DNA of 61,154 nt from Ignavibacteriales bacterium (GTDB taxonomy: Bacteria > Bacteroidota > Ignavibacteria > Ignavibacteriales > SURF-24), in assembly GCA_026390815.1 (NCBI GenBank), contig JAPLFH010000031.1:1-61154 (forward strand), in the 5' to 3' direction. Shown here one piece after another: positions 7,567 to 53,182 of the stretch. The number at the start of each line of letters is the position of its first letter. Positions within the stretch are counted from its first letter, which is position 1. The notes beneath the pieces were generated by a model. It saw only the letters and a program-made list of their open reading frames with translations. It did no database searches and was not told the DNA's origin. Made by a program: the position numbers and the translations under genes.

Positions 7567-7911
7567 TTAAGCCTTGTAGTTTTTAATCGCGTTAACCCAG
7601 GCGTCTCTTAAATCGGTAAGCACTTGTTTTACAGAATCATGGTTACCGTTCCTCATTTCTTCCTGGCAGTAATAATATAAACGGAACAAGCCAACAGCAA
7701 TTTCTCTGGAATTTTGGTCGTCAAATCTAAGAGCATTTATTAATTCCTGAATAGCATTGTTAGTTTTAATCAAGTCGTGCCTGGAACAACTGGCAATTGC
7801 AAAATCATAAATCTTTATAATTATTTGTTGTGGCGATGCCTCAAGAATTTCTTTTACTAAGTACTGGTTCAATCTATTGTTTTGAGTATTGGGATAATAA
7901 GAATAATTCAT
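7567..7911 (-). CDS. fliS: Flagellin chaperone FliS
   Basis: A 114-aa helical FliS protein. Typical features are the start NYSYYPNTQNNRLNQYLVKE, the SPQQIIIKIYDFAIA segment, DDQNSREIAVGLFRLYYYC and the C-terminal helix containing LTDLRDAWVNAI. FliS binds the C-terminus of flagellin in the cytoplasm, prevents early polymerisation and delivers it to the export gate. It is the first gene of the four-gene unit that continues with fliD, and it follows the flagellin terminator. GGAAAAG before the ATG is a plausible ribosome site. Confidence 0.93.
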   Translation of the reverse strand: MNYSYYPNTQNNRLNQYLVKEILEASPQQIIIKIYDFAIASCSRHDLIKTNNAIQELINALRFDDQNSREIAVGLFRLYYYCQEEMRNGNHDSVKQVLTDLRDAWVNAIKNYKA

Positions 7912-7989: not shown

Positions 7990-8820
7990 TTATCTAAAAA
8001 GTGAAAGAAGATTTTGTGGAGAAGCATTCATTTGAGCAAACATTGCTGTTCCAATCTGTTGAGCAATTTGCCCTCTGCTGGCATTCATTTGCTCTAGAAC
8101 AACATCTGCATCAAATATGTTGGAAAGTGTTGATGCATTGTTTGTAATTGATGCTGTTAAGAATTCTTCTCTTGAACCAAGAGACTGCTGCAGGTTACCA
8201 ATTCTGCCTAGCGCGTTTCGTACATTATTTACAACTGTTGTAGTATCAGCATTTATAACATCTGAATCAGTAGTTGACTGAAGACTGCCGGTACCAATTA
8301 GAGTTGCCATTGTACTAGAACTTAAAATACTTGTGTCCGCAAAATCCACACTAAACGAAGCTCCACCGACATCAAAAGAAGCATTTGATAATGCTGTAGA
8401 TCCGTCGGTACTGGCTAACAACTGGGTGCCATTGATGTTTGTATTCTTTAGAATAGAATCAATTTCACCGGCAAGAGTTCTGATATCAGAAGCTATGCTA
8501 GCTGAGTTCTTTAATGGATCATCTGCATCAGTTTGTTTAGCTTGAATTTGATTTAATTTGTCATTTATCTGTTGTAAAGCCATTTCTGCTGTTGACAAAT
8601 AATTCTTTGCAGAAGAAATATTACCAAGCTGTGCTTTCATTTTCAAGTTCTGAGCCTCAAGTTTTTTACCAACGTTGAAACCAGAAGTATCATCAGCAAC
8701 AGAGTTGATCTTCTTTAAAGTAGCTAAACGAAGCTGTGCTTGCGCAGTTGCCGCATTAGTTTTAGATAATGCATTATAAGCATCAAGTGCGCCTGAATTC
8801 GTGTTAATAGAGAAACCCAT
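7990..8820 (-). CDS. fliC: Flagellin A
   Basis: A 276-aa flagellin, the filament subunit exported by the flagellar type III system. Start at 8820 rather than the longer frame to 8865: AAGGAGGT lies 5 bases before this ATG and MGFSINTNSG is the usual flagellin N-terminus. Residues 1-145 form the D0/D1 helices (LRLATLKKINSVADDTSGF, NTNINGTQLL) and about 205-276 the matching C-terminal helices (RNALGRIGNLQQSLGSREEF, ending PQNLLSLFR). The centre (about 145-205) is short and Ser/Thr/Asp-rich, so D2/D3 domains are missing. It is a paralogue of the gene at 9402-10232, nearly identical at both ends and divergent in the centre. Confidence 0.95.
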   Translation of the reverse strand: MGFSINTNSGALDAYNALSKTNAATAQAQLRLATLKKINSVADDTSGFNVGKKLEAQNLKMKAQLGNISSAKNYLSTAEMALQQINDKLNQIQAKQTDADDPLKNSASIASDIRTLAGEIDSILKNTNINGTQLLASTDGSTALSNASFDVGGASFSVDFADTSILSSSTMATLIGTGSLQSTTDSDVINADTTTVVNNVRNALGRIGNLQQSLGSREEFLTASITNNASTLSNIFDADVVLEQMNASRGQIAQQIGTAMFAQMNASPQNLLSLFR

Positions 8821-8825
8821 TTTGT

Positions 8826-8870
8826 ACCTCCTTGTATTTATGTTAGATAATTGCCAGGCATCCATGCCTG
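8826..8870 (-). promoter_or_regulatory. Flagellin A leader: hairpin with GGA loop plus SD
   Basis: On the transcript a hairpin, CAGGC/GCCTG with loop ATGGAT (8855-8870), lies 21 bases before a perfect Shine-Dalgarno site AAGGAGGT (8826-8833) set in the context TACAAGGAGGT. CsrA proteins bind ANGGA, ideally in hairpin loops, and in Bacillus repress flagellin from one hairpin site plus one site over the SD. The same two-site layout is seen here, and the second flagellin gene repeats it. CsrA control is an inference; no csrA or fliW gene is in the window. Confidence 0.55.
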
Positions 8871-9401: not shown

Positions 9402-10232
9402 TTATCTAAAGAGGGACAAAAGGTTTTGTGGAGAAGCATTCATTTGAGCAAACATTGCTGTTCCAATCTGTTGAGCAATTTGCCCTTTGCTGGCATTCAT
9501 TTGCTCCAGAACAACATCAGAATCAAATATGTTTGAGAGTGTTGATGCATTATTTGTGATGGATGCTGTTAAGAATTCTTCTCTTGAACCAAGAGACTGT
9601 TGCAAGTTACCAATTCTGCCTAACGCATTTCGTACACTATCTGCAACCGTTGAAGTATCATAACCAAGAACCGTTGCATCTGTTACTGAGGTCAGGTTGG
9701 ATGTGCCAATAGCTGTTGCCAATGCTGCTGTACCAAGGTAGCTGCTGCTTCCAAAATCCACACTAAATGAAGCTCCACCTACGTCAAATGCTGCGCTTGT
9801 TAATGCAGTTGATCCGTCTGTGCTAGCTAACAACTGTGTGCCGTTGATGTTTGTATTCTTTAGAATAGAATCAATTTCACCGGCAAGAGTTCTAATATCA
9901 GATGCTATGCTTGCTGCATTTTTTAACGGATCATCAGAATCGGTTTGTTTAGCCTGGATCTGATTTAACTTATCATTTATCTGTTGCAAAGCCATTTCTG
10001 CGGTTGATAAATAATTTTTTGCAGAAGAAATATTACCGAGCTGTGCTTTCATTTTCAAGTTCTGAGCTTCAAGTTTTTTACCAACGTTGAAACCAGAAGT
10101 ATCATCAGCAACAGAGTTGATCTTCTTTAAAGTAGCTAAACGAAGTTGGGCTTGAGCGGTAGCGGCATTAGTTTTTGCTAATGCATTATAGGCGTCTAAA
10201 GCGCCCGAATTGGTGTTAATCGAGAATCCCAT
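9402..10232 (-). CDS. fliC: Flagellin B
   Basis: A 276-aa flagellin, same length as flagellin A. N-terminal residues 1-145 differ from A at only a few positions (for example NALAKT for NALSKT, DSDDPLKNAAS for DADDPLKNSAS). The C-terminal 70 residues are almost the same (DSDVV for DADVV, ASKG for ASRG). The central 60 residues differ widely. The start ATG has AAGGAGGT 5 bases upstream. Both copies keep complete export and polymerisation ends, so both should be functional. The Ser/Thr-rich centre is where O-linked glycans usually sit. The glycosyltransferase genes begin 194 bp upstream on the same strand. Confidence 0.95.
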   Translation of the reverse strand: MGFSINTNSGALDAYNALAKTNAATAQAQLRLATLKKINSVADDTSGFNVGKKLEAQNLKMKAQLGNISSAKNYLSTAEMALQQINDKLNQIQAKQTDSDDPLKNAASIASDIRTLAGEIDSILKNTNINGTQLLASTDGSTALTSAAFDVGGASFSVDFGSSSYLGTAALATAIGTSNLTSVTDATVLGYDTSTVADSVRNALGRIGNLQQSLGSREEFLTASITNNASTLSNIFDSDVVLEQMNASKGQIAQQIGTAMFAQMNASPQNLLSLFR

Positions 10233-15000: not shown

Positions 15001-17288
15001 TGAGTATTTTCCGGATACGTATAATAAGTTGAAATAAAAAGACTCACTTCATTATCATCACATACTTCCTGCAAATAAAGTGAATCGCTTTCAAATTTGA
15101 TATGGTCGTATTCTTTAATTGCAATGCTTTTTATTCCAGTAAACTTTGGTGCGGTTCCACCACGGTCCAATAAGATAATATCTTTTACCAATTCCGTTTT
15201 CGAAATTTCATTCAATAAAGAAATCCAAACTCTGCTAATACCGTATGGTCTGCCTTTTTGAAGTTGAAATATTACACCATCTATAGCAATTTTATTTTTA
15301 TTAGAAAAATTATACTCTTTGTTTTTTTCTTTTTGAAGAGCTGGCTGGATATTTAAGCTGTTTCCTTCAAGCCACTTTAGGAACCCTGATACACGATTGT
15401 TTATGGTATGTTTTTCCATTACTTCTTTATAACCAGCTTCGGCAATTTGTCTACCATATTCAGGATTATCAATTACATATTTCACTTTTTCAATAAGTTC
15501 AGGAATGTTGTTTTCATCATACAATAATAAATTTTTACCATCTTCAAAAAGAAGATTTGTTTTGCCTCCCAGAACTTTATTCTGGAAACAAACACAACCG
15601 CTACCCATTGCTTCAAATGGACGAACAACCATTGTGGGTGACAGCGAAGGCAAACCAAGTGTAATCTGATATTCATTCATCTCTTCAATAAATTGCCGGT
15701 TGGATTGCCAATTATAATCTTCATATATCTCAAATGAGTTGCTTTGTTTTAATTGTTGAGCTATTACTCTTCTTTTCGAATATGTTTTTTCATAATAAAA
15801 CGGAGTTGTTTTACCCTTAAAGAATGCTTTTTGTTTTCTTGATAAATATCGTTTAGGTTCAGGGAAAAGATTTTCATCAATTGCGAATGGCTGCCATAAA
15901 ACCGGAACTCCATAATTACCAAATAATTCTTCATCAATTTCATGTGCATAAACAACAGCCTGAACTGTTTTCATTGCATTATTGATGGCTGTTATATTGT
16001 CACTCCACCAAATATTGTTTCCTTTTATGGTCGGATTATTCATGCACTCGAATGAAAAAAGCACTTTAATTAATTTATTTTCATTCCATCTTTTTTGCCA
16101 GTCATAAGTTTTGTGCAAGTACTGTGCGTGCCATTCTGTATTCATCAGAAACATTATATCAGCATTTGGATTTTTGAGATAATTATATAACTCTTTGTTA
16201 TCCTTCTTATCACTTACATAAAATGATTTTCCATAAACATTAAATTTCTTTAGAGCTTCTGCATATCCTTCTCTAACAAACCAACTGTGTCCTTCCGGTA
16301 ATACAATGTCCACCTTAAGGTTGCTTCCTCTAGAACGAATTATATTTAAATGATTTGTCTTTTCCTTTTGGACGGGAATTACTTTTTTAGTCTCAGGTTT
16401 TTCTTTTACAAATACTTTTCCCTTAGAATGAATCGGGATACAATCATTCGTATTTAAATATTTTTGCATTACTAAATAGAATTTTTGCCAATTTTCTTTT
16501 GCGTAATCCTCAATGTTAAATCCAAGATCATTTATTACATCCTGTTCTTGCAAAACATTAAAAAATTCTACAAGTAATCCTGGAGTTATATGAGCTTTAG
16601 AATATCTACGCATTATATTCCACAGCTCTACCCATCGTTTAATGCCGCCGTTTTTGGTTTTAATTTCATCATACCATCTATAAGCTGATAGTTCTTCGTT
16701 AACTGTAACAACTTCATACTTTTGTGCAACGCGAAGCCAATATTCAAGATCCATTGCGTAAAAAAGTGTTTCATCTAAAAAACCAAGATCTTTAATTGCT
16801 TTACTATTTATAAAAGTTGATGGCTGCAAAATATAATTTGATCCTTTTAAGAGAATATCGAAATCAAATAAAAGATCGTTTGAATATTTTCTAATCCTTT
16901 TTCCGTTTTTATCGGCAATAGCTCCATTGCCAACATATAATCCTGCTTCCGGATATTTATTATACATTTCAGCTATTAAATGAAGAGCATTTGGATAGTA
17001 AAAATCATCTGAGTTTAACCATGTTACAATTTCGCCTGTAGCTTTATTAAAACCTTTGTTGATGGCGTCAGTTTGTCCCTTATCCCTTTCACTTACCCAA
17101 AAAGAAATATTTTTTTCATACTTTTTAATAATCTCCACAGAACTATCCGTCGAACCTCCATCAAAAACCATGTACTCCAGATTAGGATAATTCTGTTCAA
17201 CTACACTACGGATTGTTTCTTCTAAAAACTGTCCTTGATTATAAGATGGAGTTATAACCGTAATTTTAGGAAAATATTTCACTTCCAA
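12090..17288 (-). CDS. Giant four-glycosyltransferase fusion with TPRs
   Basis: A 1732-aa cytoplasmic polypeptide with, in order: a GT2 domain (residues about 8-230; VITPSYNQGQFLEETI, DGGSTDSS, NSDD at 92-95); a CgeB/GT1-like domain (about 325-650; PFEAMGSGCVCFQNK); a GT4 domain (about 665-1015; LLHDMIP, YPSKYEGFGLPILEAMKSG); TPR-like helices (about 1090-1190); a second GT2 domain (about 1198-1410; IVSTYNSEKFIEGCL, NTDD near 1285, GDYEFWLR); and a second TPR array (about 1500-1710). It could add several sugars in sequence. Start is TTG at 17288 or GTG at 17282; either overlaps the 2290-aa gene upstream, so the two are translationally coupled. No frameshift or signal peptide was seen. Confidence 0.82.
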   Translation of the reverse strand: MEVKYFPKITVITPSYNQGQFLEETIRSVVEQNYPNLEYMVFDGGSTDSSVEIIKKYEKNISFWVSERDKGQTDAINKGFNKATGEIVTWLNSDDFYYPNALHLIAEMYNKYPEAGLYVGNGAIADKNGKRIRKYSNDLLFDFDILLKGSNYILQPSTFINSKAIKDLGFLDETLFYAMDLEYWLRVAQKYEVVTVNEELSAYRWYDEIKTKNGGIKRWVELWNIMRRYSKAHITPGLLVEFFNVLQEQDVINDLGFNIEDYAKENWQKFYLVMQKYLNTNDCIPIHSKGKVFVKEKPETKKVIPVQKEKTNHLNIIRSRGSNLKVDIVLPEGHSWFVREGYAEALKKFNVYGKSFYVSDKKDNKELYNYLKNPNADIMFLMNTEWHAQYLHKTYDWQKRWNENKLIKVLFSFECMNNPTIKGNNIWWSDNITAINNAMKTVQAVVYAHEIDEELFGNYGVPVLWQPFAIDENLFPEPKRYLSRKQKAFFKGKTTPFYYEKTYSKRRVIAQQLKQSNSFEIYEDYNWQSNRQFIEEMNEYQITLGLPSLSPTMVVRPFEAMGSGCVCFQNKVLGGKTNLLFEDGKNLLLYDENNIPELIEKVKYVIDNPEYGRQIAEAGYKEVMEKHTINNRVSGFLKWLEGNSLNIQPALQKEKNKEYNFSNKNKIAIDGVIFQLQKGRPYGISRVWISLLNEISKTELVKDIILLDRGGTAPKFTGIKSIAIKEYDHIKFESDSLYLQEVCDDNEVSLFISTYYTYPENTHNALLLHDMIPEILGLDLTKSEWRAKLKALAKANAYFGVSQNTIDDFRKLYPEYCDKKSYLVSNAVAGDFHPRKKSELENFKSKFNIKKPYFILVGNRLEYKNAILFFKAFAKLENKNEFEIFCTGGKPELESIFKSYLEGTKYQIQFLRDEELSVAYSGAVALVYPSKYEGFGLPILEAMKSGCPVITCKNSSIPEVAGKAAVFVDEDNVNEMQHALIEIQKLEIRNDLIEKGFVQSTKFSWEHSAKALKYAIEKIMDDVSGKKLNTSDPFDTYERVIYSLKSNAEFKKFDSDVSNLKKLFGMSNRIKNSEFISAEKILGKTNNNILVILEQLAKLDSTDGFIDYLIGSIYHYKNEKANALNSFLSALKKNFKHWRVYYLAACSAFDINKFDEAKLLVRKAIEQNQYFADAKILLEKIKKKNKREEFEVSAIVSTYNSEKFIEGCLKDLVEQTLYKKGELEIIVINSGSKQNEEVIIRKYQSKYKNINYLKTENRESIYAAWNRGIKAAKGKYITNANTDDRNRNDALEIKASTLDDNHQIGVVYADDYKTTDPNSTFSSLSKNETCVWANYDSDLLLFGCYIGPHPMWRKALHEKFGYFDENLQVTGDYEFWLRISNKTDFQHLNEFLGVYYYSENSAEHRDKKKTNLEKITLQKKYLCKFILNKTDLENVKEKILNLKSMESYKQYSNSALKMLVRREQGLLVEEQIRVFVNNNAIKITEKSFIKLIELIDNAKSENVFIDQVTYLPIILLLQATFYMSNREYEKAKTAFDEILLLEPQNEFAIKYSKKIEKLNSTIKELSNYTNDVSPVIKATFFEALGLYYTDNYFDSLNMFNKIEDELVESKLNQLSIQYELYKAKAFCLLNIGDLETAKQYFESALEMNPVSSEVCHGLGEVFLQAGIYETSKTMFEWAVKNDLQNSTAIDGLIKVNEILGLDRDHNSLFKSMDVADTNFEIVDNRTESEINL

Positions 17289-20200
17289 TCTTCTTACTCT
17301 TTATTTGTTCGTTAATTAGTATTTCAATTACATTATTTGCTTCAAAGTATCCTTTACGATCTTTGGTTAATACAATTAAAGAAATTTGATGCTTACCTTT
17401 CCCAATTTCTGAAGTAAAAATTCTTCGCGCAAAACCGGAATTAGTAAAACGATCCCCAAGTTTATTTAGTACTAACTGTTTTCTAAACCCATAATTAGTT
17501 GGAAAAAGCATGTCGTTAATCTTTATCAATATACCTCCAGCCAAATCATCATTCAGATCATCTAATGCCCATCCTTCAAAAAATAATTCTTCCCCGAATA
17601 TATTTATCTGCTTCACGTTTCCGTTTTGGTTAACAATCGGATTGTTGTTAATCATTTCTATTTCATATCGTGTAGTTCTGTTTAATTTTGCAATCCCATC
17701 CAATCCAGAAAGTTGAACAACCTGTTTTAATTCTTTACGAAATATTAAATCCATTATGAAAGAAATAATCCGCTGTCTTTGATATAAGCTATTTTTATCT
17801 GCTCTGAACCAATTCTGTAAGTCTATTTTGTTGGAAATATTATTAGGATACCAACTATTTACCTCCTCAATTGAAAACTGCGACTGTTCTTGCGCTTTCC
17901 AATTTTCTAAAAATTCTTTTGCAAGTTCTTCCATATTTTGATTTTTAGCTATTCCAAACAATATTGCTGCTATTTCGGAAGCTAAAGAAAAATCGTTAAA
18001 ATCCAGATGCTTGATACTATCTAAATTCCAGTATCGAGTGTTATGAAGAAGGCTGCGCATAATAAATGTTCTGAATAATCTTGTTGAAGGATTATTCTTA
18101 TTATCTTCTGTGTACCATTCTGTCATATGGTTATTGGCTAAATCAAAATCTTTATAGTTTGTGTAAAGTTTACTATTTGGAAATACATACATATTATCAG
18201 GATCCAGGAATGTACCATACACTCTATATTTTAAAACAAAATCGATGGAAGAGATAAAATCTTCTGTAGTTTCCCCGGGAAAACCAATTATTAACGGCAA
18301 AAGATTTTGTATACCATTTTTATGACAGGTTTGTATTATTCTTTTTGCGTTCTCCAGCTTGAAATTTTTTTTCATCAAATCCACAACACGCTGACTTCCA
18401 CTTTCAAATCCCCAAAAAATCCGCCAGCATCCTGCCTTGTACATTTTTTCAATCAATTCCTCTGTTAATTCTTCTCTTAAAGCCATAATAGAAGTCCAGA
18501 TAATTGAATGCTCTTTTTTTAGGTTCAATAATAAATCTACAAACTCCTCAAAGATCTTTGAGCGTCCATTATGAATGGATTCAGCAAACATAATATGATA
18601 TACGTTGTTAACCCGGGAAGCATATTTAATTCCTTCTCTAATTTCCTTAATTACTACCGCTGGATTTCGAAACCTAAATTTTTTGAAGTTAGGGCTTTCA
18701 CTACAAAAATTACATCTGTTAATACAACCTCTTGTTAAGAATGATGGGAATCCACCTAATCCGGTATAAAGGCTAAAATCGAATTGTGAATAGTCAGCAA
18801 TGATATCCGAGTTGAATAAATCTGGTAATTCCGGCTCCCCATTATTTATTATTTCTTTTTCAGAACGATAAGCAAAGCCTTTTATTTTAGTTCTGAAATC
18901 TCTTGTTACCTCAAACTCCAGAAGAAACTTTGGCAATGCAACTTCGCATTCTCCCTGACAAATAATATCTGGAATTGCGTTATTATTTTGAAAAAACTTT
19001 ACGTTAGTATAGGCAGGGAAGCAATCAAGTCCACCAAACAGAATAGGTATTTCTGGTTTTATTGATTTTATAAACTCTGCTGCTTTAAGAACAAAGAAAT
19101 TCGTCCACGGATTAATTGTAAAACCAATTAAATCCAGGTTATTATCAACAACTAAATTGAATAAATATCCTTCAATATATTCCCTGTATTTTTCATAGAG
19201 TTCTGTAACAGCTTTTTCATTTTTCCAGATAGCGCCAGATTCCCAATTTCTATTATCCTCTTCCTTAGCTTCACGATATATTTTAACATTCAAATCCTCT
19301 ATCAGACATTCCCACCCAGCTTTCTTAACAACACCACCTACATAAGCCAAAGCATAGTACGGCTGTTCAACACTCCACCAGGGCATTCCTATTAAAAGCA
19401 TTTTACCTTTTTTGTTAATCTTATCAAATGAGTTTTCGGTAAGATCATCTTTATTTAAATTTAAGTCTGAATTGTTATATCCTATTGAAAGCGAAGAAAA
19501 CATTACCGCCAGTCTTCTTGTATCTTCTTGACCAACTAAAGATGGCATAAAATGCCCGCTGCTAATAATCTTAATTATGTAATCAGAATTGCTTTGAGGA
19601 AGGGATATTTTTATACACTGAATCTTGTTATCACTATCAAAGATTAATTTATTTATCAATTTATCATTTAATAAAACTTGTGCTTCAAACGGAAAATTTG
19701 GATAAGCATTCCCTTTAATACAATTTAAATTGAAATTTACCTCTAGTGGATATTTTATAAGATATGCCGGTATTATCATTTCAGCTTCTTTATCAATCCA
19801 GCGGAACTTACCTTCATCATTGTAAAAACCTTTATAACCAATAAAATCGAAAGAGAGTTTATTACTTATCAGATACACAATGTTTTCTATTGCTGCTTCA
19901 TTATTTTCTTCCTGAATTAAAATTTGTTTAAGAATTTCAACGGCTCGTGTATAATTTCCCTCTAAGATTTCAACAACCGCCAGATCATTAAGAGCATCCA
20001 CATTATCAGGATCTCTAACAAGAAGTGAACTTAAAACTTGCCTTGCACTTTGCAAATTTTCTGCCTGAATGTCCTTTTCAGCTTTGTGAATAATTTGTTT
20101 AGTAAGTTGGTTTTTTAATTGGTCGTTGGAATCAACGTTTCCATTTTGTTGTTGAACATTAGGATCATCAATTCTTGAATTGATATGCTGTACTTCTAAA

Positions 20201-23200
20201 TATTTCTTATTACCAATTGCAACTTCATTTTCCGGATCGAGTACTAATATTTGATGTAATAATTTTTCAGCTTCCAATAGATCGTTTAGTAAAATGGAAG
20301 CAACTACAAGATCATTTAGGATATTTATATTATCAGGTTCTTTCTTAAGAATAAAATTCAAAACTTCTTTTGCTTCTAGGTTCTTTCCTTCCTGTATTAA
20401 CTCTTCCGCCATTGTAAAAAGGTTATTTACTATTGCTTTTTCTGGAATGGCATTATTGGTAAAATCACGAATTATATTCTGGTAAAGTTCATTGTAGCGG
20501 AGTGCTTGTTTCTCCATTGAGTATTCTTTTTCTGCTTTTGCTCTACTATTTATTTTTAATTCATTCTGATTACCTTCAAATAAAACCCATCTAATTCCTT
20601 CTGCTAAATCTTCAACATTTTTAGCTTGTGCTAAGTATCCATTTTTTTTATGTTCAATTTCATCCTTCACTCCTCCTATATTAAAACCAACCACAGGTAA
20701 ACCACATGCTAATGCTTCTATAATAACGTTAGGCAGGTTGTCTTCTATGGAAGGAAGAACGAAAACATCGGCAAGGTTATAAATACCGGCTAATTTATTT
20801 TCATCTGTTATTTTGCCAAAATTAATTAACGAGCATTTTTCTGGAATTTTAAAATTATTTGAATAGTACCCGAACACACCAAGAATAATGTTAATATCTT
20901 TAAACTGCTTACTAAAAATTTCTAAAGCATCAATTAAATAATTAAATCCTTTTCTATTCGTTTCGTAATCGGCACCAAAAAGGATTAGCTTTTTAGGTGA
21001 AAGGAATTCAAGTGTTTTTTCATATTCAACCGTAGGATGTGGAATATAAACATCTAATGGAAAGCCATTGGGAATTACCGCTATAGGAAATTTTATAAAT
21101 AATGGACTTTGAGAAGCACAATCAGCAAGCCAGTTACTCGGGGTAACAATAGTAAGATTTAAATTCCTGTAGGCTTTAAATTTTTTAAGCCAAATCTGGC
21201 GAGACAAATCATTTTCATTATTAGAACCCAATTGGGGGCAAGCACCACAGCCGGTTTTATATTTATCACAGTCACCCGAATAATGGCAACCGCCGGTAAA
21301 AGCATTCATATCGTGCAGTGTCCAGACAATTGGTTTGTTATAAAATGCCAGTCGCATATAAACAGAATCCAATAACCCAGATGTCCAATGGAGATTTATT
21401 AAATCTGCATTTTGAATATCATAATTATCGTGTAGTTTAATTCCGGAATTTATATCAGTAAAAATCTCCAAACCTTTTGGTCTATCAGAATATTTTTTTA
21501 CTTCAGCCTGACAGATATCCCATTGTGTAGACCAAGCTTCTTGTAAAGCAAAAGTTTTGGGTACATCAATAGTTTTTATGCTTTCATCAATTAAGGATTT
21601 ATTTAAAACTAATAATGTGGAATTAAAACCACGTGCTTGAAGTCCTTTGTTTAATCTATATGCAGCTTTACCAGCTCCACCATTATCCAATGATGATAAA
21701 TGGACTATATTGAGTTTCTTAAAATCCCCATCAGTCTGGTTTTCTAAAATATCCGGAAGTTTTTTATTCTCCAGCATTCTTTCAAATACTGTTTTATTTA
21801 CAAAAGAAAGTTCATTTAAAGCAATAATCTTAGCGGTCTGATTTGTATCTTCAAGAAAGCCTTTTATTTTGCCTCCTGCTGTATAATCTATTGCCACAAA
21901 GTTACAGCCAACTGTAGAAGCAAAAACCACTGAATGGAATCTCATCGCAATGCAGAAATCTGCAGAAGCCATCGCGATTAGAATTTCTTCAGGACTTTGG
22001 GGTTGAATGATATATGTAACTCTTTCATCATTAGTAACATTTACTATTCTCTTTGCAAATTCTCTATCATCCTTTCCAATGGGAAAATAATGCATCGCCC
22101 ACAATTCAATCTTATGTTCCGGGTACCACGAAAGCAGTTTATTTATAAAACAAATAATATTATGAAAAGCTAAATCTGGAGAAATATTCTGTGGATATTC
22201 ATGTGTAAGTTCTCTAAAAAAACAACGGATTATATTTCCCTGTTTTTGGTATTCTATCTTTAAACTTTTAATAAAAGTGATTGATGGATCGGTTCTAACT
22301 ATTATTTCTTTTTTAATTCCCAAGTTCCTTAGCAATGCTTTTGAAGCTGAATCTCGCACGCTTACTTTACTTGCCGTCTTAACAATTTGAACAACATTAT
22401 TTCTATACTCTTCTACATTTAGCGGTCCAATTCCGCAGCCTTCTACAATTCTGGGTTTATGTTGTTCATAAAATAATCTGAATAAGTCTGCAATCATTCC
22501 TGTTTGAGGAATATCCATTAGTGGACCACCAGCCATTACAATTGCATCGCATTCAATTGTTGCAAAGTGTGCGGATTGACCGTGGTAATCCAAAATCTTA
22601 AAGGATTTACCAATCGTTTCATCCAAATTGGAAAAATTCATTTTAGAATAAGATGGAAATAAACTGAACAGGACAAATTCCAAATGGGGGTTTACTTTTA
22701 AATATTCCTGAATTATTCCTTTTAGAATTGCAATATCCCCTGCGGTTTCTGTACCATACCATCCAACCAATAATATTTTTTTTACAGATTTTAAGTCAAA
22801 TTCAATGGTGGGCAACGCCTCATCAATAGCCGGTTGAAGTTTGTTGTAAAGCATTAAATTATCGTAAAAATTTTTACTGCTATTAAGGAAATTAACTGAT
22901 GGTGTGTATTCAGAGTGATAATCATGAACACAGTTATTACAATGCTCTAACCTTATTTGCAGTCTCTCTTCTAAATTCGCTTCTGCTTTTTTACCAATAT
23001 CGTTATCTGATTTATGTGCTTTGCCTTTAGGTGCACAATAAGCAAAGTTACCTTCGCTATCCAAATTTATTGCATTTGAAAATTGATACGGGCACTGAAT
23101 TATTCTTTGTCCGCCAGAAAGAATTGATAAAATAGAATTATATGTAAATCTTATTTGCTCTTCAGGTTCATATTCGCTAATTAAAAGATGGAAAAAAGAA

Positions 23201-24138
23201 ACCAGGTGCTTTATTTCATGGTCATTAAAATTTCTAATTTGCTCTTTTAGATTTTTATTGTAAAGTCTATTTATAAATTCGGCTACTCTGAATCTAACAT
23301 AGATATTATTAGATTTACCCCAGTCCAACAGCTCGTGAAGATGATAAACATTTTCTTTAATAATTGTACAACTTGCTATTACCTGAACATTCTGTTTTCT
23401 TAAGCCAAATAAAGTTTTGGTAGCTTTTTCAAATGCCTTCTCCTTACCACGGATTTTATTATGAACGTTTTCTATTCCATCTAAAGAAACCATTCCTCCA
23501 AAATCAAAGCCCATTTTAAAATAATAATTATTGACTTTGCTATATACTTCAATTGCTTTATCAGATAAAAAACCATTAGTTATAAAAGAAGCTCCTTTAA
23601 GTTTTTTGAGCGTTTCCGGTAGAATCCTGTACAAATCAAATAAATCATTTCGGAGTGTGGGTTCACCACCAGTAATTCCAACATGTTCAACTTCTGAAAA
23701 AAATGGATTTAAAAATGTTTTACGCAGCCCATCTATACTAATTTCATAATCCCTTTTCTGCTGCCATATATTGCACATTAAACATTTGCTGTTACAAATG
23801 TTATTTGCCTGAAAATTGATTATCCGTGGTTTGTTGAAGCTAAATGATTTAATTAAAGAAATCATTTCTTCTTCCAGTAATTTTAGAATGTTTTTAAGAT
23901 TACTGGAATTAGTTAACTTTATAATAGAAGCGTTAGGATAAACTTTAAGGTAATCGTCAATCTCTTTTTGCGCCAATTCAATTTTCCCAATACGGATTAA
24001 CGCGAAAACAATTCCATACATTATTTGAATGTTACCCGGATACTGTTTTTGAATTTCCTTTAACTTATTTAACCCACATTGCACATTGTCCCCTGTTATA
24101 TCTTGAATTGAAGAAATCAAATGCAATTTTACGTTCAT
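17266..24138 (-). CDS. Giant radical-SAM / pyruvyltransferase / GT4 / B12-radical-SAM fusion
   Basis: A 2290-aa polypeptide in one unbroken frame. Domains: short TPR (about 14-70); radical SAM with CNSKCLMC at 115-122, GGEP at 157-160 and SPASM-like Cys 349, 368, 400, 403; polysaccharide pyruvyltransferase (about 452-775; VGWYGTETAGDIAIL, MAGGPLMD, MRFHSVVFAS); GT4 glycosyltransferase (about 808-1225; LHDMNAFTGGCHYSGDC, PSIEDNLPNVIIEALACG); TPRs (about 1235-1420); a beta domain (about 1425-1560); B12-binding-like domain (about 1577-1745) with a second radical SAM (CINRCNFC at 1805-1812); and a C-terminal beta domain (about 2155-2275). Separately these classes modify sugars or peptides, add pyruvate ketals and transfer sugars. 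One polypeptide joining all of them suggests a glycan-decorating assembly; the substrate is unknown. Confidence 0.82.
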   Translation of the reverse strand: MNVKLHLISSIQDITGDNVQCGLNKLKEIQKQYPGNIQIMYGIVFALIRIGKIELAQKEIDDYLKVYPNASIIKLTNSSNLKNILKLLEEEMISLIKSFSFNKPRIINFQANNICNSKCLMCNIWQQKRDYEISIDGLRKTFLNPFFSEVEHVGITGGEPTLRNDLFDLYRILPETLKKLKGASFITNGFLSDKAIEVYSKVNNYYFKMGFDFGGMVSLDGIENVHNKIRGKEKAFEKATKTLFGLRKQNVQVIASCTIIKENVYHLHELLDWGKSNNIYVRFRVAEFINRLYNKNLKEQIRNFNDHEIKHLVSFFHLLISEYEPEEQIRFTYNSILSILSGGQRIIQCPYQFSNAINLDSEGNFAYCAPKGKAHKSDNDIGKKAEANLEERLQIRLEHCNNCVHDYHSEYTPSVNFLNSSKNFYDNLMLYNKLQPAIDEALPTIEFDLKSVKKILLVGWYGTETAGDIAILKGIIQEYLKVNPHLEFVLFSLFPSYSKMNFSNLDETIGKSFKILDYHGQSAHFATIECDAIVMAGGPLMDIPQTGMIADLFRLFYEQHKPRIVEGCGIGPLNVEEYRNNVVQIVKTASKVSVRDSASKALLRNLGIKKEIIVRTDPSITFIKSLKIEYQKQGNIIRCFFRELTHEYPQNISPDLAFHNIICFINKLLSWYPEHKIELWAMHYFPIGKDDREFAKRIVNVTNDERVTYIIQPQSPEEILIAMASADFCIAMRFHSVVFASTVGCNFVAIDYTAGGKIKGFLEDTNQTAKIIALNELSFVNKTVFERMLENKKLPDILENQTDGDFKKLNIVHLSSLDNGGAGKAAYRLNKGLQARGFNSTLLVLNKSLIDESIKTIDVPKTFALQEAWSTQWDICQAEVKKYSDRPKGLEIFTDINSGIKLHDNYDIQNADLINLHWTSGLLDSVYMRLAFYNKPIVWTLHDMNAFTGGCHYSGDCDKYKTGCGACPQLGSNNENDLSRQIWLKKFKAYRNLNLTIVTPSNWLADCASQSPLFIKFPIAVIPNGFPLDVYIPHPTVEYEKTLEFLSPKKLILFGADYETNRKGFNYLIDALEIFSKQFKDINIILGVFGYYSNNFKIPEKCSLINFGKITDENKLAGIYNLADVFVLPSIEDNLPNVIIEALACGLPVVGFNIGGVKDEIEHKKNGYLAQAKNVEDLAEGIRWVLFEGNQNELKINSRAKAEKEYSMEKQALRYNELYQNIIRDFTNNAIPEKAIVNNLFTMAEELIQEGKNLEAKEVLNFILKKEPDNINILNDLVVASILLNDLLEAEKLLHQILVLDPENEVAIGNKKYLEVQHINSRIDDPNVQQQNGNVDSNDQLKNQLTKQIIHKAEKDIQAENLQSARQVLSSLLVRDPDNVDALNDLAVVEILEGNYTRAVEILKQILIQEENNEAAIENIVYLISNKLSFDFIGYKGFYNDEGKFRWIDKEAEMIIPAYLIKYPLEVNFNLNCIKGNAYPNFPFEAQVLLNDKLINKLIFDSDNKIQCIKISLPQSNSDYIIKIISSGHFMPSLVGQEDTRRLAVMFSSLSIGYNNSDLNLNKDDLTENSFDKINKKGKMLLIGMPWWSVEQPYYALAYVGGVVKKAGWECLIEDLNVKIYREAKEEDNRNWESGAIWKNEKAVTELYEKYREYIEGYLFNLVVDNNLDLIGFTINPWTNFFVLKAAEFIKSIKPEIPILFGGLDCFPAYTNVKFFQNNNAIPDIICQGECEVALPKFLLEFEVTRDFRTKIKGFAYRSEKEIINNGEPELPDLFNSDIIADYSQFDFSLYTGLGGFPSFLTRGCINRCNFCSESPNFKKFRFRNPAVVIKEIREGIKYASRVNNVYHIMFAESIHNGRSKIFEEFVDLLLNLKKEHSIIWTSIMALREELTEELIEKMYKAGCWRIFWGFESGSQRVVDLMKKNFKLENAKRIIQTCHKNGIQNLLPLIIGFPGETTEDFISSIDFVLKYRVYGTFLDPDNMYVFPNSKLYTNYKDFDLANNHMTEWYTEDNKNNPSTRLFRTFIMRSLLHNTRYWNLDSIKHLDFNDFSLASEIAAILFGIAKNQNMEELAKEFLENWKAQEQSQFSIEEVNSWYPNNISNKIDLQNWFRADKNSLYQRQRIISFIMDLIFRKELKQVVQLSGLDGIAKLNRTTRYEIEMINNNPIVNQNGNVKQINIFGEELFFEGWALDDLNDDLAGGILIKINDMLFPTNYGFRKQLVLNKLGDRFTNSGFARRIFTSEIGKGKHQISLIVLTKDRKGYFEANNVIEILINEQIKSKKIGSEIFS

Positions 24139-26349: not shown

Positions 26350-29300
26350 TTATTTATTAGCAAGGATTTCGAATATAACTTTAATCAGCAATTCTTTGTC
26401 AAATGGTTTTGCCAGGTAATTTGTCATTCCCTGACTAATAAATTTTTCTTTATCGCCGGACATTGCGTAACCCGTTATTGCTACAATTGGAACCTTTTCG
26501 TAACCTTTTATTTTTTTAAGTTCTTTAAAAACATCAACTCCATTCATCCCTGTTCCTAAATTAATATCCATAAGCACAATAGCATATTCTTTCTGAAACG
26601 CCATCTTGATGGCTCCTAAACCATCAATAGCATGATCTACCTTGCAAATTCCTCTTAGAAAAACTTCCACAACTTCCTTATTAATAATATTATCTTCAAC
26701 AAGAAGAACTTCCGGAAGTATATCGAACGATACATTTTTATTTTCCTTAAATACAATTTCTGGCGGTGCGTTAAGTTCGGGATTTAATACTTCCCCTAAC
26801 ACACCCGGTATTGTTAAAGTAAAAGTTGAACCAACACCTAACTGACTATCAACATTAATATCACCGTTTATAAGTCTTGCCATTTTTCTTGCAAGTGTTA
26901 ATCCTAATCCGCTTCCTTCATAGCTTCTGCTTAATCCTTCACTTGCCTGCCTAAATTCATGAAAGATTAATTCTTTATCTTTATCCGCAATACCAATTCC
27001 ACTATCAATAATCTGAACCTTAGCAATAAAACCATCTTCTCCTCTATCTTCATTTTCTAATTTAATTTTAATGCCACCTTTAACCGTAAATTTAATTGCA
27101 TTATCTACAAGATTAATAATTATTTTATTCAGCACGGTTTCATCAACCAATGCAGATATATCATTTTCGGGTCTTTCATATTCAAAATACAATCCTTTCT
27201 GTTTTGCTTTTTCTTCATATTCTTTTAGAATATTAAAAAGCAGCGCTCCAATCTTAACTTCATTAAATGTTAGCAAAAACTCGTTGGATTCAAGTTCTGA
27301 TAAATCCAAAATGGTATTTAAAGTCATCATTAATCTTTTACTGGAATGCTGAATTTTTTGCACCATCTGCTTTTGAAAAGGTTCAGTTATTTCCTCCGCT
27401 AAAAGCTGTGCAAAGCCTAAAATTCCATTCATAGGTGTTCTAAGTTCATGACTCATATTTGCCAGTAATGAAGATTTCAGTTTACTTGATTCTTCAGCTC
27501 TATCCAATGCTTGTTTTAATTCTATGTCCATCATCTTTTTATCTGTTATGTCTTCTTTTACAGCAAGATAATTGATGACCTCTCCTTTTCCATTTTTAAT
27601 TGGAGAAATGGATGCCGATTCCCAGAACAGTTCTTCATTTTTTTTCTTATTAAGAAATTCACCGCGCCATTCTTTACCCATAGAGATGGTTTCCCAAAGT
27701 TCCTTATAGTTCTCAGATGACATCTCTCCTGTTTTTAAAATTCTGGGATTTTGACCGATTACTTCTTCTGGTGTGTACCCGGTTACTTGAGTAAACTTTG
27801 GATTAACATATTCAATTCTTCCAGCCAAATCAGTTAAAATAACCGAAGCTGGACTTTGATCTATTGCTCGTGAAAGTTTTAGAATTTCTTTTTCAGCCTT
27901 TGCCCTTTCTGCTGTTATAAAAGAAAGTGTTATTAAATCGGCAATTGAATTACCAAATTCTTGTTCATCAATTGACCATTCTCTATTATGTCCAATGTGT
28001 TCGTGGTTAATGAAGCCAATTATTTTGCCTTCAACCCAAACTGGAATTGTAAACATTGAAGTAATTTTATTTGGCTTAAGATATTGCTCTAATATATCCA
28101 AAGCCCTTTCATCATTATTTACGTCACTAATTGTAACAAAGCCAAATTCATTAAGCAATTTAATATACCTGTAAAGATTAGATAGCTTTAGATTAGCACT
28201 TTTTTCAAACGAATCATTCATTCGCTTGTACAGGTAGGCACAAGTAGTTTCTGTATTCGCTTCATTAATTTTCCAGAATCCAACTCTATCTGCGCCAATT
28301 GCATTAGCGTCCGATTCCAATATTTTCCGGATTGAAATATCAAAATTATTTTCATCTAACTTGGCAAGTTTTAGTAATGCCGCTTGTTGCCTAAAAATTT
28401 GTTCTGTTTTTTTCCTGGCTTTTTCTTCCTGAATTTTCCTTGAACTTATATCAGTATGGGTTCCAACCATTCTTGCTGGTTTACCATCTGCTGACCAGGA
28501 AATAACTTTTCCTCTGTCAAGTATCCAAATATAATTTCCATTTTTGCATTTAACTCTATGCTCACTTTCATAAACCTGGGATTCACCATTAAAAAGTCTG
28601 TAAACTTCACTTTGTACATAATCAATATCTTCTGGATGGGTGCGTTCTTTCCAATCATTTAAGTCATCAACAATGTCCTCGGGATTGTAGCCATGCATTT
28701 CTTTCCATCGCCTGGAATAATAAAATTTATTCTTTTCTATATCCCAATCCCATACACCATCCCCGCTGCCTTCAAGGGCAAACTGCCATCTCTGCTCACT
28801 TTCACGTAGTGCTTCTTCAGCTTTACGCTGTTCAGTATTATCTCGTTGTGTCCCCCATACTCTAATAAGTCTATTATTTTCTATTATTCCAATTGTATTA
28901 TTTAAAAAGTAAAGGGTCTTTCCATCTTTACTTTTTTCAACTGTTATTGCATTTTCCAATTTAAAATTATTACGAACCCAGGAAAGCAGAGAATTTTTTT
29001 GTTCTTCAAATGTGCCACACCAAAAATCTGATAATTTATGTCCTATTACTTCCCGGATATTGTTATAACCATACATTCTGGCAAATGCATCATTACATTC
29101 AACCAGGTAAGCATGATTAATAAAAAATTCTGCCTGCTCTTTTTCAGAAAGTTCTAAAAACATTGGGATATCAAGCTCCATACAAGAAATTCCTTCCGCC
29201 GTTTGCCCGATGAATGCTTTGTATCTTTCTTCGCTTTCTAAAATTTTCTTTTCAGATTCTTTCCGCTCAGTTACATTTCTTGATGTGACTAAAATTCCAT

Positions 29301-31593
29301 TTATTTCGGAATTATCAAGAAGATTCTTCGCAACGGATTCCATAAAAATGTAATTGCCATTAGCATGTTTAATTCTAAACTCAGTTGGTATTCCGTTATT
29401 GTTATTTTCCCTTACCTCCATCAAATCAGAACTAACTGAAGGTATATCGTCAGGATGAATAAAATCAAAACAGTTTTTACCGATCATATATCCGGGATCA
29501 TAACCTAAAATTTTACTTACAGAAGGGCTTTCATAAATTATAGTGCCATTTGTATCAAGGAGATTTATTAAATCCGAAAGACCTTGAATCATTGATCGGA
29601 ATCGTTCTTCACTTTTAGCAAGAATTTCTTCAGTTCGTTTTCTTTCTGTTATATTTCTAAAGATGGTAAGCATCAATGGGCGCTCCCCTGTCATTTCGAA
29701 ATACGCTTCAGAAAGTTCAAACCAGATTTGCTTATTATTCCACAGTTTAACTTGTCGTTCAAGCGTTCTTTCTAATCTTTGTTTAAATCGAGTTTGATAT
29801 TTTTGTACAACGTTAGCAGTAATTTGTGATAAAAGAATTACAGAAAAAGGATTTCCAATTAACTCGTTCCTCGTTTTTTCCACCATTTTACAGTAAGCAT
29901 CATTAACTTCTATTATAATTCCGTTCTCATCGGTAAGCCTCATACCATCAGATGAATGCTCCCATACTAATCTGAACTGAAGTGCCGATTTTTGCATAGC
30001 CTCTTCGGTTTTTTTATTTTCAGTAATGTCTATTGATACGCCAAGAATAGCCAAATCAGTTGTTCCATTAAAAGCAAAAGGGATTTTTGTGGTTTGCAGT
30101 GTTCTTAAATTGCCGGTCGAATCAGTAATTGTTTCTTCAGGAATTAATTTGGGCAAACCGCTTTTTATAACTTCAAGGTCATCTCCACGGAAATGATTTA
30201 CTTCTTCAACACTTGGGTCAAAATCTGCGTCAGTTTTACCAAGCAATTCTTCTACTGAAGTTCCATATGCTTCTGCTACAGCTTTGTTTACTAAAATGAA
30301 TTGTCCTTTTTCATTCTTTGCAAAAATGAAATGCGGTACTAAATCAATTACTTGTCTTAATCTGCTTTCACTAAGCTTTAAGGATTCTTCAACTTTTTTC
30401 CGTTCAGAAATGTCAATAATAATTCCGCGTAAACCTATCCGCTTATTTTTATTAATAACTGCATTTGAATGAATAATTGCCGAGAAAGTTGTTCCATCTT
30501 TTTTCTTTAGAATATATTCAGTCACTCCAATCTCTTCACCAGTTATAATTTTTTTTATATTTTCTTTTGCTCTTGCCAAATCCTGCGGAACAACAAAATC
30601 AAAAATGTATAAACCTTTTTCAAAATCTTCCGGATTGTGTTTAAATTGATCGAAAGCGCTTTTATTCACAAAGGTTAGCTTACCTTTTATGTCTGTTTCA
30701 AAAACTACTGGTGGAAGCATATCGGCAAGTAATCTGAATTTACTTTCGCCTTCCTTTAATGCCTGTTCAGAAAGCTTCTGTTGGGTAATATCTCTTGTTA
30801 CTGATGCCAGTCTAATTCCTTTTTCAGTTTTAATTGGAAAAACAGTTTGCTGCGAAAATACTTGTTCACCATTTGGTTTCTGAACTTCCGCTTCAAGTGT
30901 CTTGTAAAAAAAATCTGCTTCATGTTTTTCCAAGGCTGAATTCAGGACAGTTTTAAGATATTCATTATTTTGAGGTGACTTTTTATTTTCTGGTAACATT
31001 GAAAACTGCACATCATTATAAAATTTACCGAGAGCTTCTTCCCTTGGAATTCCTGATATGGCTGCATGAGCTTTATTCCATTCAATTATTTTCCCTTCTT
31101 CATCAAGTAAAACAAAACCATCTGTGGCTTGCTCAATAAATGCTCTGTATTTCTGTTCGCTTTCTTTTAAAGCATCTTCAGAATTTTTTCGTTTGGTAAT
31201 ATCGCGCCCAACTGCCTGATATTGAAAACTGCCATTAAATTGAATGGGGCAATAAGTCCATTCGTGCCATTTAATTTCTCCATTACTCAATTTTACTCTA
31301 AATTCAACCTGGTAGGTTTTTCTTTCGGATTGTAGAATATTGGATAAAACTATTATTTTCTTTCTGTCCGGTTTGTATATAAAATTAATAAAGTTTTTGT
31401 TAAGCAGTTCTTGTTTTATTTTCCCAAAGTAAATACAGCAAGATTTATTAACGTACGTTAGAACTCCATCTGGTTTAAATTTGCAGATCATAGCAGGAAT
31501 TTCATCAATAAGCAATTCTTCATACTTCTCAATTCCCTTAAGAGCATCAAGTTCCTTAATTAACTGTTCCTTTGTTTTTCTACTATCTTTCAT
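26350..31593 (-). CDS. Hybrid sensor histidine kinase, nine PAS and one GAF
   Basis: A 1747-aa cytoplasmic hybrid kinase without membrane helices. Nine PAS/PAC units are readable at about 19-135, 148-272, 285-400, 410-530, 540-655, 665-785, 795-925, 930-1055 and 1240-1360, with a GAF domain at about 1070-1235 between the last two. HisKA follows with NMSHELRTPMNG (phospho-His near 1379), then HATPase (NLVDNAIKFT, DSGIGIADKD, GSGLGLTLA) and a C-terminal receiver (EVLLVEDN, phospho-Asp in VLMDINLG near 1675, Lys in LAKPF). It is the last gene of a three-kinase operon, 7 bp after the preceding gene, and holds the operon's only receiver. Ligands are unknown; the PAS string suggests integration of several redox or small-molecule cues. 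Confidence 0.93.
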   Translation of the reverse strand: MKDSRKTKEQLIKELDALKGIEKYEELLIDEIPAMICKFKPDGVLTYVNKSCCIYFGKIKQELLNKNFINFIYKPDRKKIIVLSNILQSERKTYQVEFRVKLSNGEIKWHEWTYCPIQFNGSFQYQAVGRDITKRKNSEDALKESEQKYRAFIEQATDGFVLLDEEGKIIEWNKAHAAISGIPREEALGKFYNDVQFSMLPENKKSPQNNEYLKTVLNSALEKHEADFFYKTLEAEVQKPNGEQVFSQQTVFPIKTEKGIRLASVTRDITQQKLSEQALKEGESKFRLLADMLPPVVFETDIKGKLTFVNKSAFDQFKHNPEDFEKGLYIFDFVVPQDLARAKENIKKIITGEEIGVTEYILKKKDGTTFSAIIHSNAVINKNKRIGLRGIIIDISERKKVEESLKLSESRLRQVIDLVPHFIFAKNEKGQFILVNKAVAEAYGTSVEELLGKTDADFDPSVEEVNHFRGDDLEVIKSGLPKLIPEETITDSTGNLRTLQTTKIPFAFNGTTDLAILGVSIDITENKKTEEAMQKSALQFRLVWEHSSDGMRLTDENGIIIEVNDAYCKMVEKTRNELIGNPFSVILLSQITANVVQKYQTRFKQRLERTLERQVKLWNNKQIWFELSEAYFEMTGERPLMLTIFRNITERKRTEEILAKSEERFRSMIQGLSDLINLLDTNGTIIYESPSVSKILGYDPGYMIGKNCFDFIHPDDIPSVSSDLMEVRENNNNGIPTEFRIKHANGNYIFMESVAKNLLDNSEINGILVTSRNVTERKESEKKILESEERYKAFIGQTAEGISCMELDIPMFLELSEKEQAEFFINHAYLVECNDAFARMYGYNNIREVIGHKLSDFWCGTFEEQKNSLLSWVRNNFKLENAITVEKSKDGKTLYFLNNTIGIIENNRLIRVWGTQRDNTEQRKAEEALRESEQRWQFALEGSGDGVWDWDIEKNKFYYSRRWKEMHGYNPEDIVDDLNDWKERTHPEDIDYVQSEVYRLFNGESQVYESEHRVKCKNGNYIWILDRGKVISWSADGKPARMVGTHTDISSRKIQEEKARKKTEQIFRQQAALLKLAKLDENNFDISIRKILESDANAIGADRVGFWKINEANTETTCAYLYKRMNDSFEKSANLKLSNLYRYIKLLNEFGFVTISDVNNDERALDILEQYLKPNKITSMFTIPVWVEGKIIGFINHEHIGHNREWSIDEQEFGNSIADLITLSFITAERAKAEKEILKLSRAIDQSPASVILTDLAGRIEYVNPKFTQVTGYTPEEVIGQNPRILKTGEMSSENYKELWETISMGKEWRGEFLNKKKNEELFWESASISPIKNGKGEVINYLAVKEDITDKKMMDIELKQALDRAEESSKLKSSLLANMSHELRTPMNGILGFAQLLAEEITEPFQKQMVQKIQHSSKRLMMTLNTILDLSELESNEFLLTFNEVKIGALLFNILKEYEEKAKQKGLYFEYERPENDISALVDETVLNKIIINLVDNAIKFTVKGGIKIKLENEDRGEDGFIAKVQIIDSGIGIADKDKELIFHEFRQASEGLSRSYEGSGLGLTLARKMARLINGDINVDSQLGVGSTFTLTIPGVLGEVLNPELNAPPEIVFKENKNVSFDILPEVLLVEDNIINKEVVEVFLRGICKVDHAIDGLGAIKMAFQKEYAIVLMDINLGTGMNGVDVFKELKKIKGYEKVPIVAITGYAMSGDKEKFISQGMTNYLAKPFDKELLIKVIFEILANK

Positions 31594-31600
31594 AAATCTC

Positions 31601-52804: not shown

Positions 52805-53182
52805 ATTTACCTGCTAAGAAAAATAATGAAAAGTGATAATATATGATAGAGACATTTATTGAATCATCAAATATTCGGTTCACATTAAAAATCCCCCACT
52901 AAATTTTGTTTTGTTTTTCCCAGCTACAAGAATAGTAAGCAAATTTATTCTTAACAATCCGGTTGTGAAATCAATAGAGAAGTTCTCAAAAAGAAAAGAT
53001 TACTACATTTTATGTCTAAAAAAATTTAATCGGTAATAATTATCTTCAATTGGAGATATTTAACCAGTATAAATTCACCGTAAAAATTTATTCTCTTTTT
53101 TTTATCCGTTTTTCAATTTATTATTGCGGCACCTTCTTTGCTAAGTCATAAGAAGTTCTTAAAATATGCAAGGAGTGCAATT
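52805..53182. other. Divergent intergenic region without genes
   Basis: A 378-bp AT-rich stretch between the sensor kinase (minus) and the T9SS glycosidase (plus). On the minus strand TAAATTTG (52940-52947) could be a -7 element, but the nearest TTG is 24 bases away. No repeat, RNA gene or small gene was recognised. Confidence 0.5.

Follow-up and report, generated by a model that had tools for sequence, protein, structure and literature searches.

P0001, a giant protein encoded beside flagellin in the window (the whole 61,154-nucleotide stretch of Ignavibacteriales DNA that we analysed), is probably one multi-enzyme part of a mosaic island for flagellin glycosylation; we put the probability of this reading at about 0.6. 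Related genomes hold other giant mosaics at the same place, so that P0001 would seem to be one version of an exchangeable set of parts with which the flagellum is decorated. Its N-terminal half belongs to a conserved family that unites a radical SAM domain with a pyruvyltransferase fold in several phyla and that has apparently not been described.

Reading frame and domain order

The P0001 gene occupies positions 17266–24138 on the minus strand, stop codon included, with its ATG start at 24138, its stop at 17266–17268 and no internal stop over 2290 codons. The unbroken frame of 2290 amino acids reported by the first-pass annotation is therefore borne out, on the minus strand. A plus-strand reading of the same interval was rejected, the translation being full of stops with no frame. 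The order of domains is TPR, twitch-type radical SAM, pyruvyltransferase-fold, GT4, TPR, carbohydrate-binding-like beta, B12-type radical SAM and a weakly predicted C-terminal beta domain. All the domains that the annotation had named (two radical SAM, pyruvyltransferase-like, GT4 and TPRs) are present, the B12-binding domain falling below the Pfam cut-off, and a TPR-like helical pair at residues 1–66 is to be added to them. The signature residues of both radical SAM domains and of the pyruvyltransferase are kept.

GC content is 0.29–0.33 across all parts of P0001, and with this uniformity the composition shows no sign of a mis-joined contig. The viral contigs searched with P0001 contained no relative, and the plasmids searched gave isolated GT4 or radical SAM matches only, none of which spans most of the query.

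The N-terminal radical SAM and pyruvyltransferase domains

The domains of P0001 and the genes of its island described below lie on the minus strand. Residues 1–800 were modelled from a 14-member alignment with a mean pLDDT of 80. The TPR-like helical pair is assigned to residues 1–95 (23854–24138), with modelled helices at 2–15, 19–32, 37–49 and 53–66 of low-to-medium pLDDT. It is followed by a radical SAM domain with a C-terminal twitch-like region (residues 96–417; 22888–23853), the site of which was located by NCBIfam (96–286) and by the CxxxCxxC motif. Pfam Radical_SAM matches two stretches of P0001 (3e-31), the better of which is the second domain, at 1801–1968. The cysteines named beforehand, 115/119/122 here and 1805/1809/1812 in the second domain, are exactly where they were placed, and there are further cysteines at 349, 368, 400 and 403. 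Cys115, Cys119 and Cys122 and the auxiliary-cluster residues Cys349, Cys368, Cys400 and Cys403 are invariant across the 14-member family, as in a twitch/SPASM enzyme. The best structural matches of this first domain are SkfB (Z 20.6), BlsE (19.0) and SuiB (19.0).

The polysaccharide pyruvyltransferase-fold domain (residues 450–793; 21760–22791) is identified by Pfam, by the family alignment and by its fold. PS_pyruv_trans (PF04230) matches residues 467–752 with an E-value of 8.8e-29 and 101.7 bits against a cut-off of 25.3. The model is GT-B-like and matches UDP-GlcNAc 2-epimerases (Z about 20) as well as Pvg1p (5ax7; Z 18.6, rmsd 3.5, 265 residues aligned). In CsaB the PEP-binding residues are R148, H308 and K328 (PMC10435577). 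R595, H735 and K757 of P0001 are invariant in the 14 sequences and their spacing fits that of the CsaB residues, the match being one of motif and spacing only. P0001 resembles the ketal pyruvyltransferases CsaB and Pvg1p in Pfam family and in fold, and its Arg, His and Lys stand at positions that would fit, but it differs from them in that the domain is fused to radical SAM and misses the CsaB equivalog TIGR03609 (97.7 against 213.1 bits).

A conserved family and a chimeric polypeptide

Residues from about 96 to 793 align end to end with proteins of about 750 amino acids at 28–38% identity. These occur in Chitinophagales, Pedobacter, Saprospiraceae, Planctomycetota, Cyanobacteria, Chloroflexaceae and Halobacteriovoraceae, and keep the three radical SAM cysteines, the four auxiliary cysteines, a GWYGTET motif, R595, H735 and K757 throughout. 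No NCBIfam model claims the family, and the literature searched contained no paper pairing 'polysaccharide pyruvyl transferase' with 'radical SAM'. The annotation's remark that such classes normally occur as separate proteins is thus right only in part, since the family found in other phyla already has radical SAM and pyruvyltransferase in one protein.

In the family loci (L028–L040, L148 and L149), which are spread over several phyla, the radical SAM-pyruvyltransferase gene is usually followed by a GT4 gene; this directly adjoins it in 13 of the 15 loci examined, with a weak match in L149 and a split frame in L032. The neighbours of the stand-alone genes that we examined are glycosyltransferases, FkbM methyltransferases, ABC transporters and Polysacc_synt proteins, and flagellin is not beside them. 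Since these loci are clusters of the surface-polysaccharide type, the chemistry of the module need not be specific to flagellin.

Among 164 genomes of the order the radical SAM-pyruvyltransferase half was found in this one only, and in a sample of 395 genomes of the phylum two others carry it, as genes for proteins of about 750 residues. In a tree the GT4 domain of P0001 clusters with the GT4s of the relatives' giants (support 100/99), several of which lie in flagellin islands, and not with those of the cassettes. P0001 is therefore a chimera, in which a half that is elsewhere a separate conserved protein is fused to an island-type GT4. A foreign pair of domains appears to have been joined to the island GT4, rather than a whole cassette having arrived.

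The GT4, TPR and C-terminal domains

The island-type GT4 glycosyltransferase comprises residues 807–1230 (20449–21720), assigned by Pfam and by the tree. By Pfam it spans about 820–1190 and has the two-domain GT-B layout, with Glycos_transf_1 as C-terminal domain at 1047–1190 (1.1e-23, 84 bits against 26.4); the N-terminal Glyco_transf_4 is slightly under its cut-off (27.9 against 28.5). TPR repeats follow at residues 1231–1425 (19864–20448); TPR_19 matches two stretches, the best at 1357–1415 (1.5e-20), and the segment is like those behind the glycosyltransferases in the relatives' giants.

Residues 1425–2290 were modelled with a mean pLDDT of 61, and the structural match list for this C-terminal model bears almost wholly on its part 152–612. 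The annotation had left two beta domains unassigned. The first (residues 1426–1545; 19504–19863) is predicted to form a beta-sandwich at about 1436–1530, for which Foldseek rows include beta domains of BcsB, CE2 esterases and a CBM35, a weak lead to a carbohydrate-binding-like role; a homologue in relative G056 is fused to TPR and radical SAM. The second (about 2190–2290; 17269–17571) is predicted with low confidence only and has few homologues.

Between them, a B12-binding-like domain and a radical SAM core occupy residues 1576–2010 (18109–19413), with CxxxCxxC at 1805/1809/1812. Pfam B12-binding matches 1661–1737 (5.6e-05) with 23.4 bits, under its 32.1-bit cut-off, and the fold match to OxsB (Z 24.0, 370 residues aligned) spans the B12-binding-like region. 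Other fold matches of the region are MgmA, CysS, AprD4, TsrM and TokK. P0001 shares with all six a radical SAM core with CxxxCxxC, preceded by a predicted B12-binding-like fold, and is unlike them in that the B12-type radical SAM ends a GT/TPR giant. OxsB and AprD4 are solved B12-radical SAM enzymes that are not methyltransferases. Neither the order nor the phylum sample contained a relative of this domain above about 30% identity.

The flagellin locus

On the minus strand the genes run P0003, P0001, P0002, P0007, two flagellins, FliS and FliD. P0003 (24336–26201) is a 621-residue coiled-coil/TPR protein with two hydrophobic stretches; it has no Pfam family above cut-off and keeps its place on the island's upstream flank in flagellin-bearing relatives. 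P0002 (12090–17288) is a further giant of 1732 residues in which Pfam recognizes GT2, GT1_2-like, GT4, GT2 and TPR modules, and it matches a 2100-residue protein of relative G046 at 47% over about 1416 residues. P0007 (10427–11977; 516 residues) has a GT2 domain and a weak TPR by Pfam and NCBIfam, is conserved beside flagellin and is a candidate flagellin glycosyltransferase. The flagellins lie at 9402–10232 (P0008) and 7990–8865, the export chaperone FliS at 7567–7911 and the filament cap FliD at 5775–7565.

The island is immediately preceded, on its upstream side, by a run of three large histidine kinases rich in PAS (26350–36381); single histidine kinases precede P0003 in several relatives (e.g. 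L097, L111, L112 and L115).

Islands in related genomes

The frame of a P0003 homologue, at least one giant, a P0007 homologue and flagellin recurs in the relatives. Among 35 flagellin loci the P0007 homologue lies within 1.5 kb of flagellin on the same strand in 26, and 27 have an open reading frame of more than 1000 residues, the largest being of 3935; giant fusions are what these islands normally contain. Strong matches to P0003 or P0007 (E < 1e-30) were found in 41/41 flagellin-positive relatives and 0/18 flagellin-negative ones, counts that are not independent events because the relatives share ancestry. The link to flagellin that had been supposed from this one contig is thus real and conserved across the order. 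As for the same fusion order recurring elsewhere, the exact fusion in P0001 was present in no other genome searched; it is the homologues of P0003 and P0007 that co-occur with flagellin. Nor do homologues exist only as individual genes without ties to flagella or glycans: in relatives GT-TPR giants adjoin flagellin, and the family loci, where checked, carry polysaccharide genes.

The modules of the giants vary among the relatives and include GT2, GT4, GT9, Fringe-like, FkbM, other SAM methyltransferases and radical SAM. Radical SAM modules are not peculiar to P0001: the flagellin island of G001 (L107) has one at the N-terminus of a 2486-residue giant and another as a separate gene, that of G045 (L115) has one as a separate gene, and in G053 a B12-radical SAM-TPR-methyltransferase-TPR-GT2 fusion lies behind the P0003 homologue. 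The G056 giant, which joins the first beta domain to TPR and radical SAM, lies outside the flagellin island, some 70 kb away from the P0003 homologue of that genome.

With glycan genes beside flagellin, variable content between constant neighbours and TPR-bearing glycosyltransferases (P0007, P0001 and P0002), the locus is a probable flagellin glycosylation island. The 'one-chain workshop' of the first-pass annotation stands in so far as P0001 is a multi-domain chain; it does not work alone, and is better seen as an interchangeable piece of an island together with P0002 and P0007.

Two further loci deserve mention. In G052 a 3935-residue giant beside flagellin (L120:1119-12923) holds a methyltransferase, GT9, four GT2, GT4 and TPRs in one frame. 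In another family, three giants are adjacent in G500:C20 (L135:3427-17411): one with three methyltransferase stretches, TPR and a radical SAM with SPASM, one with B12-radical SAM and TPR, and one with GT2, GT4 and TPR. No flagellin was recognized within about 20–40 kb of the G500 giants, so that such proteins are not always flagellar and the G500 cluster would be a second use of this design, away from the flagellum.

Proposed function and alternatives

The catalytic steps that we assign to P0001, P0002 and P0007, their order and the acceptor are inferred, with activities taken from family and fold. P0007 would bind unfolded flagellin in the cytoplasm and add the first sugar. It fits this role: a 2026 survey (PMC13317340) takes the combination of GT2 and TPR as the sign of a flagellin glycosyltransferase, and flagellin is bound by the TPRs of FlmG (PMC7591256) and, as cited in the survey, by those of Maf-1. 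The glycan would then be extended by the GT2, GT4 and GT2 modules of P0002 and by the GT4 domain of P0001, and the pyruvyltransferase domain could cap a sugar with pyruvate derived from PEP. The twitch-type and B12-type radical SAM domains may carry out one or two radical steps, probably a C-methylation in the case of the B12-type, on the sugar or its donor. Until FliS assists in export, the TPRs and the carbohydrate-binding-like domain might keep flagellin, or the glycan as it grows, attached to the machine.

The stand-alone homologues of the N-terminal half, which sit among glycosyltransferases, ABC transporters and Polysacc_synt flippases in Bacteroidota, Planctomycetota and Cyanobacteria, raise the alternative that P0001 acts on a lipid-linked surface polysaccharide, such as LPS or capsule, and is next to flagellin incidentally. 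We consider this unlikely: the open reading frames scanned around P0001 included no recognizable flippase, polymerase or polysaccharide ABC transporter, the GT4 of P0001 sides with those of the relatives' giants at 100/99 and not with the cassettes, and the conservation of the P0003-giants-P0007-flagellin frame speaks against incidental placement. Slightly less probable still is that the polypeptide of flagellin is the substrate of both radical SAM domains, which would modify it in a RiPP-like manner, by thioether bonds or C-methylated residues for example, while the TPRs hold flagellin and the glycosyltransferases add sugars. The first domain is indeed similar to the peptide-modifying SkfB, SuiB and anSME, and the best NCBIfam matches of the B12-radical SAM domain include the RiPP enzymes ApyD and rSAM_ocin_1. 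However, the first domain's family comes joined to a pyruvyltransferase, and in the polysaccharide clusters where its checked members lie no peptide substrate is obvious. The full-length fold also matches that of BlsE, whose substrate is a sugar acid.

It seems highly improbable that P0001 is an assembly artefact or a decayed gene that joins separate proteins. The fusion is known from a single genome and the contig is a draft, but 2290 codons run without stop or frameshift, at uniform GC and with conserved catalytic residues, and independent fusions of radical SAM, glycosyltransferase and TPR modules occur in G001, G053, G056 and G500.

A probable role of P0001 in flagellin glycosylation is the reading that we retain. 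A broader and decidedly more tentative proposal is that giant proteins of exchangeable kinds decorate the flagella of the order as on an 'assembly line'. Radical SAM domains would act on the sugar attached to flagellin, or on the flagellin, with TPRs holding the substrate, and the glycan would be made protein-bound in the manner of polyketide synthases.

Comparison with known systems

Flagellin glycosylation is known, and in the literature searched the sugar genes are separate and the transferases single. Those papers that mention radical SAM along with flagellin and glycosylation are, by their titles and abstracts, apparently unrelated. The island resembles those of Clostridium GT2-TPR, Caulobacter FlmG and Maf-1 in having glycan genes beside flagellin, variable content and proteins with TPR and glycosyltransferase domains that are likely to bind flagellin (PMC13317340, PMC7591256). 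It differs from them in that sugar-modifying enzymes and several glycosyltransferases are fused into giants of 1000–3935 residues, in its radical SAM and pyruvyltransferase modules and in the fixed P0003/P0007 frame across the order. Compared with the proteins of about 750 residues, residues 96–793 of P0001 are a member of the same family; there the protein is encoded by a separate gene, in polysaccharide clusters where checked, whereas in P0001 it is fused to an island-type GT4 and a C-terminal half.

A conserved locus with fused and swapped sets of glycosyltransferases and sugar-modifying enzymes, radical SAM and pyruvyltransferase modules among them, would show how filament surfaces diversify, and the islands of the relatives would supply a ready collection of natural multi-enzyme fusions. 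P0001 has also drawn out the radical SAM-pyruvyltransferase family, the chemistry of which is testable.

Additional observations

The window also encodes, at 53138–57724, a protein of 1528 residues that bears a Por secretion tail and matches GH123 weakly; it is likely to be an enzyme exported by type IX secretion. In this genome the 16S rRNA is split into three pieces over two contigs (G000:C58:32869-34098 and G000:C46:29-674), probably through an assembly break.
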